A program made the translations under genes and the position numbers. The notes under the pieces are model-generated. The model did not search any database, was not told the DNA's origin, and worked only from the letters and a program-made list of their open reading frames with translations. A stretch of DNA of 64,000 nucleotides from Nitrospirota bacterium (GTDB taxonomy: Bacteria; Nitrospirota; Thermodesulfovibrionia; SZUA-242): the NCBI GenBank assembly GCA_016212095.1, contig JACRHH010000002.1, forward strand, positions 1 through 64,000, read 5' to 3'. Of this stretch, positions 20,399 to 30,571 are shown one piece after another (within the stretch, counting starts at the first letter, position 1; each line of letters starts with the position of its first letter).

Positions 20399-20773
20399 TC
20401 ACGACCTCCAGAGTCCATGCAGGTTGCAATACTCACGCGCATAAACATCGGACGCTTCAACCGCAAAAAACGCCTCAGGCGCGTCGCCGGGCTTAAGGAA
20501 CTGCCTGTACGCCCTGCCGTCGGCAACAAGCTCGATCCATTCGATGAAGTGCTTCTCCTCCATCGGATGGGCAACGCTTCCGACCTTCACCATCACGCCG
20601 CCTGCCACCTTCTCCACAACCGGAACATGCTTTTCCTTCGAAGCGTCAACCGTGTTTTCCGCCATGTGGCGCATCGGCTGTCCGCAGCAGACGAGCTCGC
20701 CAACGCCCTCGTGAAGAACCTCAACGATATGACCGCACAGGTCGCACTTGTAAACATCCAGACGATTTGCCAT
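20399..20773 (-). CDS. dfx: Desulfoferrodoxin (superoxide reductase)
   Basis: Reduces superoxide to hydrogen peroxide without making oxygen, a hallmark of anaerobes. In 124 residues the desulforedoxin-type centre I (Cys10, Cys13, Cys29, Cys30) and the catalytic centre II (His49, His69, His75, Cys116, His119; motifs [14 protein letters not shown] and YCNLHGLW) are complete. The start at 20773 has AAGGAG upstream. The conserved glutamate-containing EKHVPV loop is present. The gene lies 16 bp after rubrerythrin, so the two form an oxidative-stress operon. Confidence 0.97.
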
Positions 20774-20789
20774 GTTTGTAATCTCCTTT

Positions 20790-21365
20790 CTAGTAATTCT
20801 CGCCGTGAAGCTCGAAATGATCGCGCGGGTGCGCGCAGGCCGGACAGGAATCGGGCGCTTCCGTGCCGTCGTGCATATATCCGCAGTTGCGGCACCGCCA
20901 TGTTGTCTTTGCGTCGCGCTTGAAAACCCTGCCGTTTTCGATATTGGCCGCAAGCGCCCGGTAACGCTTTTCATGCTGGCGCTCGGCCACGGCAATGGCC
21001 TCGAAAATCCTGGCGATGTCGCCGAATCCTTCCTCGCGCGCAATCACGGCGAAATCCGGATACATGGTGGTCTGTTCATAATGCTCGCCGGCAGCCGCGG
21101 CCAGCAGGTTTTCCGTGGTGCTTCCGATAACACCAGCCGGAAACGACGCCTGCACCATAACCTCGCCGCCCTGCAACAGCTTGAACAGCCGCTTTGCGTG
21201 CTCTTTTTCCTGATTGGCCGTCTCCTCGAAGATCGCCGAAATCTGCACGTAGCCTTCTTTTTTGGCCTTGGCCGCAAAGTATGTGTACCTGTTGCGCGCC
21301 TGCGATTCCCCGGCAAACGCCGTCAGAATATTCTTCTCCGTCCTGCTTCCCTTTAATTCAGCCAT
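20790..21365 (-). CDS. rbr: Rubrerythrin
   Basis: Non-heme diiron peroxidase that completes peroxide detoxification with the downstream superoxide reductase. The ferritin-like four-helix domain carries ExxH ligands ([13 protein letters not shown] and [13 protein letters not shown]). The C-terminal rubredoxin domain has [10 protein letters not shown] and [11 protein letters not shown]. Length 191 is normal. The start at 21365 is preceded by AGGAGG. A perfect TTGACA hexamer lies further upstream with a family-B repeat in the presumed leader. Confidence 0.97.
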
Positions 21366-21620: not shown

Positions 21621-24062
21621 ATGAAGCTTGGCGAAAAAATCAAAGTTGGCCTGATTACCGGCGCAATTACCCTCTACGCAATAATTTTCACGGTTTCCTA
21701 CATCCATGAGCGCAACGAGGCGGAAAAAGACGCCTACAATACATGCCTGCATATACTCGCCGACGCCGATGCGACGCAGGCGTATGTCCGGGATGAACTG
21801 AGGCCGCGCATTTCAAGGTTGCTTCCTCCGGATGTTTTCATTCCGGAGGCGATGTCTTCCACCTTCGCCGCGCGAAGCGTGCTGAAACGCTTCGCAGATG
21901 ATTCGACTTCCGGCTACCGGTTCAAGCTGGCCGCAATGAATCCGAGGAATCCGCTGAACACGCCAACCGATGCGGAGCGCCGGATCATCGAAGCGTTCAC
22001 GCGGAATCCGGAACTGAGGGAATGGCGCGGCAGGGTGGATCATAACGGAACGGAATATCTCCATGTTGCCACGCCGATTGCTCTTGCCGACAAATGCCTG
22101 AAATGCCACGGCAGGCCGCAGGACGCCCCCGCCGGACTTCTGGCAATGTACGGCGACACACGCGGATTCGGCAAGAAAGCGGGGGAAATAGCCATACGGT
22201 CGGTCATGGTTCCGGTCAAGGTGACGATGGATAGCGTTTTTGCCCGCACGGCGGGAATGATGGTTCCACTTCTCATTGTGATATTCGCGTTCTCCTTCCT
22301 GCTTCTTCGCTTCCTGAACCGTTCGGTCGCCAATCCGGTGCTGGAACTGGAAGCGGGCGTGCGGAAAATGGAGGCTGGAGATTATCAGGTTTCCGTATCC
22401 GCTGATTCCGGAGATGAAATAGGTCGTCTGGCCGGAGCCTTCAACCATATGGCTACGCAGATACGGCATGGCATGAACGATCTGGATCAGAGCCGGAAAT
22501 TCCTTCAGAGCGTCATCGACGGCGTGGCCGAAACAGTTATAGTGATCGACAGGCAGTACCGCATACTGATGATGAACAGTTCGGCGTCGAGGCTCTGCAC
22601 CCAATCGGATGGAAGCTGCGCCGGAGACTATTGCCACAAGGTCACGCACGGATCGGACACGCCATGTTCGGGAGTGGAGCACCAGTGTCCGGTTCAGGAG
22701 GTGTTCGCATCGGGCAAGCCGTTCCAGACCACGCACGTGCATTTAGACGCCGACGGCGGCAGGCATGTCATCGAGCTTTCCGCCTCCCCTATCTTCGACG
22801 CTGACGGAAATATCGAAGCCATTATCGAGATCGGGCGCGACATAACAAACACAATAGCCGAAGTGGAGGAACGAAAAAGGCTGGAGACGATGCTGGCCGA
22901 GCGGCGCAAGGAAGAGTTCGTTGCCACGCTTGCGGGCGTCATCGCTCAAGATTTCAACAACATATTTACAGGCTTGATGGGCAACGCCGAGCTGCTGAAG
23001 ATGCGGAGCGATTCCCTGGGGAACGACGCGCGCCTCACCGATTACATCATCGAGGGCTGCGACAGGATGGCGCATCTTACCAAACAGCTTCTTGCCTATG
23101 CGCGCGGCGGCAAGTATCACCTCAGGAAGACATCCATCAACAAGACAATTGCAGACACGCTTGACAGGCTGAAGATTGCATCGCATCCGGAATTGCATGT
23201 TTCGCTGAATCTGGCCGAAGACCTGTGGGATGTGATGGCCGACCCCGACCAGATGATCCAGGTGATGAGCAACATTCTCAACAATTCGCTGGAGGCGATG
23301 GGAGATCTTTCCGGCAAATCCGGCGTGCTGACGATTACCACATCCAATTTCAGCGCTGCAAAGTCTTATGAGATCGATCCGGGTCATCTCCATCCGTCAG
23401 GCGCATATATTTGCGTGAAAATCGCCGACAGCGGCCCAGGCATTCCTGAATCGGATCGGGAGCGTGTTTTCGAGCCGTTCTACACAACCAAATTCCTCGG
23501 ACGCGGCCTGGGCCTTTCCGCCGCGCAGGGAATAATTCAGAACCATGACGGCTGGATAAAGGTCGAAAGCCCGCCCGGAAACGGCACGACAGTGACAGTA
23601 TGCCTGCCGCGCGCAGAACGCTGCGATGAAACCGCGCCACGGCAACCCGTATCGGCGGCGCGCAGGTCGGCAAAGCCCGGAGTATTTCTTCTTGTGGATG
23701 ACGAGCTACAGGTAATCAAGCTGCTTGAGGCGATTCTCGCCATGAGAAACACTGAATGCATCTCCGTTACAAACGGTCTGGATGCAATCGAGACCGTCAT
23801 GGCCCGCAAAGATGAAATTTCGTTTGTTATCCTCGACATACAGATGCCGGGAATGGACGGAAGGCGCGTTTACACGCGCATCAAGAAGATCAAGCCTGAG
23901 TTGAAGGTGCTGATCGCAAGCGGCTACGATGAGGATTTCGCAACCGGAGGAATGCTGCTGGACGCCGGAGACGGTTTCATTCAGAAGCCCTTCCATGCAA
24001 AAAGATTGCAGGACAGAATCGATGCCATGCTTTCAGGAAAAACGGAGGCGGAAGCGAGCTGA
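21621..24062 (+). CDS. Hybrid sensor histidine kinase with DUF3365/heme-motif sensor and receiver domain
   Basis: An 813-residue membrane sensor. After TM1 (about 10-30) a periplasmic DUF3365-type domain ends with a c-heme motif CLKCH (about 154-158). TM2 is near 213-233, then HAMP (SVANPVLELE to about 290), a PAS domain (about 295-410) with cysteines, a HisKA-like helix, HATPase (PFYTTKFLGRGLGLSAAQG) and a C-terminal receiver with Asp739 (ILDIQMPGMDG). The expected phosphoacceptor His in IAHDFNN is Gln443 (IAQDFNNIFTG). By family the sensor is redox- or ligand-responsive via heme. GGAG precedes the ATG by 7 nt. A response regulator follows 2 bp later. Confidence 0.92.
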   Translation: MKLGEKIKVGLITGAITLYAIIFTVSYIHERNEAEKDAYNTCLHILADADATQAYVRDELRPRISRLLPPDVFIPEAMSSTFAARSVLKRFADDSTSGYRFKLAAMNPRNPLNTPTDAERRIIEAFTRNPELREWRGRVDHNGTEYLHVATPIALADKCLKCHGRPQDAPAGLLAMYGDTRGFGKKAGEIAIRSVMVPVKVTMDSVFARTAGMMVPLLIVIFAFSFLLLRFLNRSVANPVLELEAGVRKMEAGDYQVSVSADSGDEIGRLAGAFNHMATQIRHGMNDLDQSRKFLQSVIDGVAETVIVIDRQYRILMMNSSASRLCTQSDGSCAGDYCHKVTHGSDTPCSGVEHQCPVQEVFASGKPFQTTHVHLDADGGRHVIELSASPIFDADGNIEAIIEIGRDITNTIAEVEERKRLETMLAERRKEEFVATLAGVIAQDFNNIFTGLMGNAELLKMRSDSLGNDARLTDYIIEGCDRMAHLTKQLLAYARGGKYHLRKTSINKTIADTLDRLKIASHPELHVSLNLAEDLWDVMADPDQMIQVMSNILNNSLEAMGDLSGKSGVLTITTSNFSAAKSYEIDPGHLHPSGAYICVKIADSGPGIPESDRERVFEPFYTTKFLGRGLGLSAAQGIIQNHDGWIKVESPPGNGTTVTVCLPRAERCDETAPRQPVSAARRSAKPGVFLLVDDELQVIKLLEAILAMRNTECISVTNGLDAIETVMARKDEISFVILDIQMPGMDGRRVYTRIKKIKPELKVLIASGYDEDFATGGMLLDAGDGFIQKPFHAKRLQDRIDAMLSGKTEAEAS

Positions 24063-24064
24063 CA

Positions 24065-24592
24065 ATGGAACAAATGGAACAATCCGTTAAAACAATTCTG
24101 GTTGTGGACGACGACAATTCGCTGGCGGCCATGCTGAAAAAGGTGTTCGAGATGAACGGATGGCGTTGCGAAACCGCCGATTGCGGCAAAAGCGCGCTTG
24201 GCCGTCTCGCGATCAACCAGTATGAGCTGATGCTTACGGACATTGTGATGCCGGGAATGGACGGGTTCGAGCTGGTCGAGAAAGCAAAGCAGATACACCC
24301 CGACATGATGGTGATAATGATGACCGGATTCAGCGAATTCGATTCGTATGACAAGGCAATCGCCTCCGGCGCGGCGGATTTCGTGAAGAAGCCGTTTCAG
24401 TTGAAGGAACTCCTTGTGCGAATCGACAGGATCGAACGCGACATGCGGCTGATAGAGGAGGCGCGGCAGCGCGAGCAGGCGATGCAGGCCATATCGCGGG
24501 AGATGATCGCCGGCATTCAGGAGGAGACGCGGGCGCGTCTGGAGGCGGCGGAGGAGAAACTGCGAGGCGTGAAAGGAGCTGGAGGAGGCTAA
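24065..24592 (+). CDS. Single-receiver response regulator with C-terminal coiled coil
   Basis: A CheY-like receiver (residues 9-125) with acidic pocket VVDDD, phosphoacceptor Asp59 (LTDIVMPGMDG), Thr in MMTGFSE and Lys in FVKKPFQ. The remaining about 45 residues are a charged coiled coil (LIEEARQREQAMQ) with a Gly-rich end, but no DNA-binding or enzymatic output. It starts 2 bp after the hybrid kinase stop, so it is most likely its partner and passes the signal by protein contact. Confidence 0.9.
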   Translation: MEQMEQSVKTILVVDDDNSLAAMLKKVFEMNGWRCETADCGKSALGRLAINQYELMLTDIVMPGMDGFELVEKAKQIHPDMMVIMMTGFSEFDSYDKAIASGAADFVKKPFQLKELLVRIDRIERDMRLIEEARQREQAMQAISREMIAGIQEETRARLEAAEEKLRGVKGAGGG

Positions 24593-24678
24593 CGAAGGCC
24601 CGCATATGTTCCAAAACTGTTATTATTTTACAGGCGATCACCAATTCGCCATTGAATGATTTATACCGGAGAATTGCC

Positions 24679-24903
24679 ATGCTGGTTGATTACAAAGAGA
24701 GAATCCTGAGGGAGATCGAAAAGATACCACCCGCCAAGTTGGTTGATATGTATCGCATTGTTCACATCCTGTCAAATGAAATGGCAACATACTCCAACAA
24801 TAAGAGCTTGCCCAGCCTCAAGGGCATATGGAAGGGAAACAGGATTGACGATTCCGTGATCGCGGAGGCAAGGGAATCGCTTTACCCGTATGAAACGAAA
24901 TGA
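24679..24903 (+). CDS. Antitoxin-like small protein (orphan)
   Basis: A 74-residue protein beginning MLVDYKERILREIEKIP; the ATG at 24679 has CCGGAG 7 nt upstream. The helical N-terminus and the C-terminal GIWKGNRIDDSVIAEAR resemble small antitoxins that precede PIN-domain toxins. No toxin gene follows: the next about 75 bp only hold a short frame before the convergent kinase gene. It may be an orphan antitoxin left after toxin loss. Base composition is more AT-rich than the neighbours, as is common for toxin-antitoxin genes. Confidence 0.6.
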   Translation: MLVDYKERILREIEKIPPAKLVDMYRIVHILSNEMATYSNNKSLPSLKGIWKGNRIDDSVIAEARESLYPYETK

Positions 24904-29114: not shown

Positions 29115-29154
29115 TTTTCACCACCTTGCGCGGATAACCGCCATAAAAAGACCA

Positions 29155-29288
29155 CCGCCAACAGTATGTTTAGTTGGCGAAAAAACACCACCGCCAACAG
29201 GCCGTTTCGTTGGCGGAAAAACACCACCGCCAACAGGCCGTTTCGTTGGCGGAAAAACACCACCGCCAACAGTATGTTCAGTTGGCGG
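29155..29288. repeat. Array of alternating complementary 8-mers, 36-bp period
   Basis: CCGCCAAC occurs at 29155, 29191, 29227 and 29263, exactly every 36 bp; its complement GTTGGCGG lies midway in each unit (the first copy has one change). Spacers of 10 bases are near-identical between units rather than unique. Each 8-mer can pair with the one on either side. The array lies in the 308-bp gene-free stretch between rimP and the plus-strand kinase. I see no gene in it. Confidence 0.95.
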
Positions 29289-29296
29289 AAAAACAA

Positions 29297-29422: not shown

Positions 29423-30571
29423 ATGCTATATTGCCTGATGCCGGAAACCGCCATGTTCTCCCATGCCGACGTCCTGAACAGCCTGTCCGTGGCGGTTCTG
29501 CTGCTTGACAGGGACATGAACGTGCTGGCCGCAAACCGCGCCGCCGAGGAAGACCTGCCGCACGCCGGAGGCATACATACGGGGCACCCGTTGTTAGTCG
29601 CATTCCCGTGGCTCGCCCCGTACCGGAACACGCTTCTGTCATCTTCCGGCGCAGGGCGCAGCTGCTATCTGTCCAACATCCCGATGCCTGAAGGCCCAGC
29701 CTGGGCGCATCTGACGCCGCATGTCACGGCGGACGGCGCGGTCGAAGGTTCGGTGCTCACAGTGGGAATATCACGCGGCGCATCGGATGAGCGCGACGAT
29801 CTGGCGTTCGAATCTGTCGAGGGGCTGATTTCACAGATCGCGCATGAAATACGGAATCCGCTTGGCGGCATTCGCGGCGCTTCCCAGCTTCTGGCGGAGC
29901 GGCTTCCTCCGGATCAGGGCGAATTCCTTCATGTGATAATCCGCGAGGTTGACAGGCTTTCGGCCATTCTCCACGAGCTTCTGGACTTCGCCGCGCCTGC
30001 CAGGGCGCCACGGCAGACGCTCAACATCCACGAGGTTATCGACCGTGCATTCATGATCCTGGCTCCGGAGATGGACGGCATCACCGTTCGCCGGTTGTAC
30101 GACCCCAGCCTGCCGGACGTCTTCGGCGACGGCGCGAAGCTGCTTCAGGTGTTCATAAACCTGATCCGCAACGCCGCCGAGGCCATGCGCGAGCCCGACA
30201 ACGCCGCCGAGGCGGTGCGTGAAACTGATCCGCCACGCGTGCTTGAGGTTCAGACGCGCCCATCATCGCGCTACATGCAGCGAAACGGACGGATTTCGAA
30301 ATGGGCCGAGGTCAGGGTGATAGACAACGGGCCGGGGATCGCGAGGGAAGACCTGCGGCGCATATTTCTGCCATACTACACGCGCAAAAAGCAGGGCTCC
30401 GGCTTGGGGCTTGCCATATCGAAGAAAATACTTGTCTCGCACGAGGGAATGCTCCGGGTGGAAAGCCGCGAGGGCATGGGCGCAACGTTCATCGCGTGCG
30501 TGCCGTTTGCGGCAAATCAATCCATCGGACGCCAGAAGCCGCGCGGACGAAAATCAAACGGAAGCCGCTGA
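29423..30571 (+). CDS. NtrB-type sensor histidine kinase
   Basis: A soluble 382-residue kinase with an N-terminal PAS-like domain (about 15-115: NSLSVAVLLLDRDMNVLAAN), a HisKA helix with His141 (SQIAHEIRNPLGGIRGASQL) and an HATPase domain (NLIRNAAEAM; KKQGSGLGLAISKK). The GIRGASQLL stretch is diagnostic of NtrB/GlnL kinases, so nitrogen control is possible, though no glnA or glnB is nearby. Starts at 29438 or 29453 are alternatives; the last has GGAAA upstream. It is followed after 5 bp by an NtrC-type activator. Confidence 0.92.
   Translation: MLYCLMPETAMFSHADVLNSLSVAVLLLDRDMNVLAANRAAEEDLPHAGGIHTGHPLLVAFPWLAPYRNTLLSSSGAGRSCYLSNIPMPEGPAWAHLTPHVTADGAVEGSVLTVGISRGASDERDDLAFESVEGLISQIAHEIRNPLGGIRGASQLLAERLPPDQGEFLHVIIREVDRLSAILHELLDFAAPARAPRQTLNIHEVIDRAFMILAPEMDGITVRRLYDPSLPDVFGDGAKLLQVFINLIRNAAEAMREPDNAAEAVRETDPPRVLEVQTRPSSRYMQRNGRISKWAEVRVIDNGPGIAREDLRRIFLPYYTRKKQGSGLGLAISKKILVSHEGMLRVESREGMGATFIACVPFAANQSIGRQKPRGRKSNGSR

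Follow-up and report, generated by a model that had tools for sequence, protein, structure and literature searches.

A putative heme-sensing hybrid histidine pseudokinase with glutamine at the phosphoacceptor position in a Nitrospirota genome

The window analysed here, a stretch of 64,000 nucleotides (contig JACRHH010000002.1, positions 1 to 64,000, assembly GCA_016212095.1), encodes a hybrid histidine kinase in which the phosphoacceptor histidine is replaced by glutamine (Gln443). The reading favoured in this study, which is made from one sequence and is given about an even chance of being right, is that the protein is a real, lineage-private histidine pseudokinase that would act via a partner kinase or by receiver binding. 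The gene is an intact ORF of 813 amino acids with no frameshifts. Residue 443 is Q within ...TLAGVIAQDFNNIFTG... of the assembled sequence, and the 813-codon ORF contains ...RRKEEFVATLAGVIAQDFNNIFTGLMGNAELL..., with CAA at 22947-22949. A single third-position change separates this codon from the His codons CAT and CAC. The features of the locus, all on the + strand, are as follows.

21621..24062, +, hybrid histidine (pseudo)kinase, 813 aa, with sCache_heme, TM, HAMP, PAS, HisKA, HATPase_c and receiver (ORF and Pfam)
21714..22193, +, Tll0287-like/sCache_heme sensor, residues 32-191 (PF11845, E 9.3e-32; matches the solved Tll0287 structure 5B82)
22095..22109, +, CLKCH covalent heme c attachment motif, residues 159-163 (Cys/Cys/His invariant in 18 aligned sensor domains)
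22311..22466, +, HAMP, residues 231-282 (PF00672)
22530..22853, +, PAS, residues 304-411 (PF08448)
22929..23108, +, HisKA (DHp), residues 437-496 (PF00512)
22938..22940, +, Val440 codon GTC (Gly in 56/56 homologues)
22947..22949, +, Gln443 codon CAA, phosphoacceptor position (His in 56/56 homologues)
22965..22967, +, Phe449 codon TTT (Leu in 55/56 homologues)
23241..23615, +, HATPase_c, residues 541-665 (PF02518, E 2.2e-22; N, G1, F and G2 boxes retained)
23688..24020, +, receiver, residues 690-800, phospho-Asp739 codon 23835-23837 (PF00072)
24065..24592, +, receiver-only response regulator, 175 aa, Asp59 codon 24239-24241 (PF00072 as the sole Pfam domain)

The C-terminal fused receiver, with its Asp and the supporting residues, makes the protein a hybrid kinase, and its HisKA domain (PF00512), having Gln in place of the His, shows the replaced phosphoacceptor expected of a histidine pseudokinase. 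When it is compared with a canonical HisKA autokinase, the phosphoacceptor His is missing, and the HATPase_c domain with the N, G1, F and G2 boxes is present. The ATPase domain and both receivers had been described as intact in the sequence-only reading, and this description was confirmed. In HATPase_c, besides the PF02518 match, 26 of the 27 columns conserved at 90% or more are retained, the exception being the conservative change Ala556Ser. The receiver of the kinase carries Asp739 in cis within LDIQMP, with D693, D694, D739, S767 and K789 all present, and the next protein carries Asp59 within LTDIVMP. The latter, a response regulator, starts 2 bases past the stop codon of the kinase, an operon-like spacing; it has no DNA-binding domain, and its C-terminal stretch reads as helical and charged.

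Several other elements were noted in the neighbourhood. Genes of desulfoferrodoxin and rubrerythrin (20399-21365, minus strand) lie upstream of the kinase gene, about 255 bases away and divergent from it; such an oxidative-stress gene pair would suit an oxidative or nitrosative setting, though it is no proof of one. At the other end, 3' of the response regulator gene, a small ORF (24652-24903, + strand; 74-83 aa) has an antitoxin-like reading and no Pfam match. A 36-base tandem repeat (29145-29295; 4.2 copies, 90% match) is located just upstream of another histidine kinase gene, 29423-30571.

The rarity of Gln443 was assessed at several levels. The alignment comprised 56 non-self homologues, three copies of the query itself having been excluded, and all 56 carry His443. 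Thus, the replacement of the His of the expected IAHDFNN motif, which had been read from the letters, is borne out by both the re-read codon and the alignment. The same reading had named, as what would speak against it, His in all close homologues together with reads for CAT or CAC, and the first half of this is what the homologues display. Within the same genome, 53 HisKA proteins were scored with confidence, and 52 of them have His, the exception being the kinase under study. Of the 230 genomes of the class, 198 contain the DNA word for A-H-D-F-N-N, 1281 times in all; the word for A-Q-D-F-N-N occurs three times in these 230 genomes, once in this kinase and twice in non-kinases. When extended to 396 sampled genomes of the phylum, the DNA-word search revealed no additional A-Q-D-F-N-N kinases. 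The closest proteins of the class share 40-44% identity across PAS, kinase and receiver, and among full-length class proteins with this architecture the best match shares 34%. No ortholog combining this architecture with high identity was identified in the 230 class or 396 phylum genomes, and a protein scan of the genome contigs yielded mostly distant kinases (22-35% identity) and no ortholog. As judged from these sequences, the change from His to Gln is private to this kinase. The loss of the phosphoacceptor His is a rare kind of change that has been seen before in other proteins; no description of Gln at this position was found in the literature searched.

The simplest objection is a base-call or assembly error at 22949, in which case the true codon would be CAT or CAC and the protein an ordinary hybrid kinase. 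One third-position change is enough for that, and His is present in all homologues. However, an error hitting exactly this base is rare a priori, the ORF is free of frameshifts, and two other near-invariant residues of the same helix, Gly440 and Leu449, are also replaced, which a single error cannot yield. Within the H-box (residues 434-452), eight columns reach a conservation of at least 90%, and three of them deviate, versus 2 of 42 elsewhere, a modest excess that depends on the cut-off (Fisher p = 0.02 at 90%, 0.05 at 85%), and none of the 56 homologues has more than one H-box deviation at the conserved columns. Besides, helix 1 of the DHp domain has diverged as a whole: it averages 48.6% identity to the subfamily, versus 59-68% for the other members. 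The kinase falls less far behind in the PAS and ATPase domains than in helix 1, and it is not the lowest member of the subfamily for the remainder of DHp or for the receiver. The alteration of positions 440 and 449 and the excess divergence of helix 1 thus speak for something beyond one miscalled base. A lone base-call error is therefore unlikely to be the whole story, and an ordinary kinase behind a sequencing fault appears decidedly improbable; the pattern resembles genuine divergence with its focus on the phosphoacceptor helix. Since there is one sequence and no ortholog with Gln, conservation of Gln and later selection on the protein cannot be shown.

The CLKCH sequence in the sensor domain had been proposed to be a c-type heme motif, and the PF11845 match together with the invariance of Cys159, Cys162 and His163 bears this out. 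CXXCH is 99% conserved in the sCache_heme family (PMC12889525, preprint). Heme c assembly proteins (PF01578) are encoded in the same genome. In this family, an axial Cys would mark the redox type and its lack the NO-sensor type. In the sensor alignment, the protein shares Cys42 only with L137 and L138. The alignment with 5B82 stops short of the region that decides the axial heme ligand. In vitro, a HAMP-containing member of the family bound NO tightly and behaved as an NO sensor, and a stand-alone member that was tested appeared redox-related (PMC12889525, preprint). Because the HAMP-containing relative acted as an NO sensor, the redox signalling route suggested from the sequence is too specific a label, and the heme motif itself stands. 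The likely input of the domain is nitric oxide or redox state.

As the acceptor His is absent, the usual autokinase reaction is impossible; autophosphorylation at the usual site would be lost, and the protein alone is probably not able to act as a kinase. The suggestion that it is a pseudokinase acting by binding or phosphatase activity, or depending on a partner kinase, is still the best reading as regards the partner and the binding; the phosphatase part has lost ground, as discussed below. Under the favoured reading, the heme domain would sense nitric oxide or redox state and pass the signal to a partner. It is conceivable that the dimerising protein, His-less and ATP-competent, pairs with a His-bearing paralogous kinase, and within such a heterodimer the ATPase domain of the Gln443 protein could phosphorylate the His of the partner. 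The other option is the binding or gating of phosphoryl groups set on Asp739 and Asp59, which would come from other kinases or Hpt proteins. The same genome does contain Hpt domains and about 50 His-bearing HisKA kinases as possible partners. Judging from its sequence, the most natural candidate partner is a paralog of the same subfamily (G000:C34:26803-28347, minus strand; L002, L186), which keeps His (GGIAHEFNN) and shares 36% identity. With a heme-c sensor and with both the ATPase domain and the fused receiver intact, such a pseudokinase would offer a clean test of trans-phosphorylation versus regulator binding alone. If it is an isolated loss, the case is of little importance.

The same genome also encodes something like a mirror image of this kinase, an sCache_heme-PAS-HisKA protein with a normal His and without an HATPase domain (L243:3053-4519, minus strand; G000:C9, about 212552-214018). 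It could be imagined that the two heme-c sensor proteins are complementary halves whose heterodimer would be an NO-gated, trans-only kinase. However, their DHp types differ, QDFNN in the kinase under study versus HEIRQPL in the G000:C9 protein, and this mismatch argues against the pairing, which is given only the slightest chance.

Three further readings accept Gln443 as real. The protein could be a recently inactivated kinase, with the phosphoacceptor lost, the gene decaying and no current signalling role. This would agree with a change seen in a single genome out of 230 of the class and 396 of the phylum, with the alteration of two more near-invariant H-box residues, and with a tip branch (0.95) longer than those of other subfamily members. 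Yet neither the 813-aa ORF nor the downstream regulator is disrupted, the residues of the ATPase and receiver domains are retained, and GC3 of the gene is close to that of its neighbours, so decay is rather doubtful, if a serious possibility. As for a His-less phosphatase working on Asp739, Asp59 or another regulator, some His-less HisKA mutants keep phosphatase activity, and the acidic D444 beside position 443 and Asn N447 four residues on are both kept in the H-box. On the other hand, in the HisKA kinase HK853 the phosphoacceptor His is described as belonging to an HxxxT phosphatase centre, and the H260A mutant has diminished phosphatase activity (PMC5727384); DivL, the best-studied pseudokinase, has no phosphatase activity and stabilises DivK~P (PMC4211667). 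These two cases weaken a pure phosphatase role, which is considered improbable. It is very unlikely that the protein is still a kinase using an unconventional nearby phosphoacceptor, e.g., His485 of DHp helix 2 or another residue. H485 is indeed present in DHp, and a neighbouring same-helix His was suggested for CCNA_03265 (PMC11481889), but helix 1 of this kinase has no His, the nearest on either side being at 382 and 485, and H485 is 42 residues off, in the expected helix 2.

The literature searched yielded few histidine pseudokinases, and most of those that have been studied belong to Caulobacter. In its sensory part, the protein resembles the sCache_heme (DUF3365/Tll0287) sensor kinases, in which HAMP and a kinase are joined to a CXXCH-bearing Tll0287-like domain; unlike it, the hybrid kinase relatives with this sensor and a match to the H-box motif have retained His. 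DivL of Caulobacter crescentus has Tyr550 at the phosphoacceptor position and functions without kinase activity (PMC4211667). Both proteins are of the HisKA type, with the phosphoacceptor replaced and the other H, N, G1, F and G2 motifs kept. However, the Tyr of DivL is conserved across Alphaproteobacteria, whereas Gln443 is found in a single genome, and the present protein, known from sequence alone, combines a c-heme sensor with a fused receiver and has a further receiver protein next to it. Another Caulobacter protein, CCNA_03265 (CC_3162), is a hybrid kinase without His and with the receiver Asp kept, which was a hit in a hyperadhesion screen and for which a heterodimer or Hpt input has been proposed (PMC11481889). 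As far as its description allows, it is similar to the present kinase in being a hybrid with the conserved His missing and the receiver Asp retained, but the neighbouring same-helix His proposed there has no counterpart here. The pairing suggested above has its closest likeness in a laboratory-evolved ChrS pseudokinase of Corynebacterium glutamicum, which depends on cross-phosphorylation by HrrS, with ChrS and HrrS forming heterodimers (PMC9491836). There, as proposed for the Gln443 protein, a kinase-dead sensor signals with a heterodimerising paralogous kinase; the difference is that ChrS lost its ATPase domain by a frameshift, whereas the protein described here loses His and keeps the ATPase domain.
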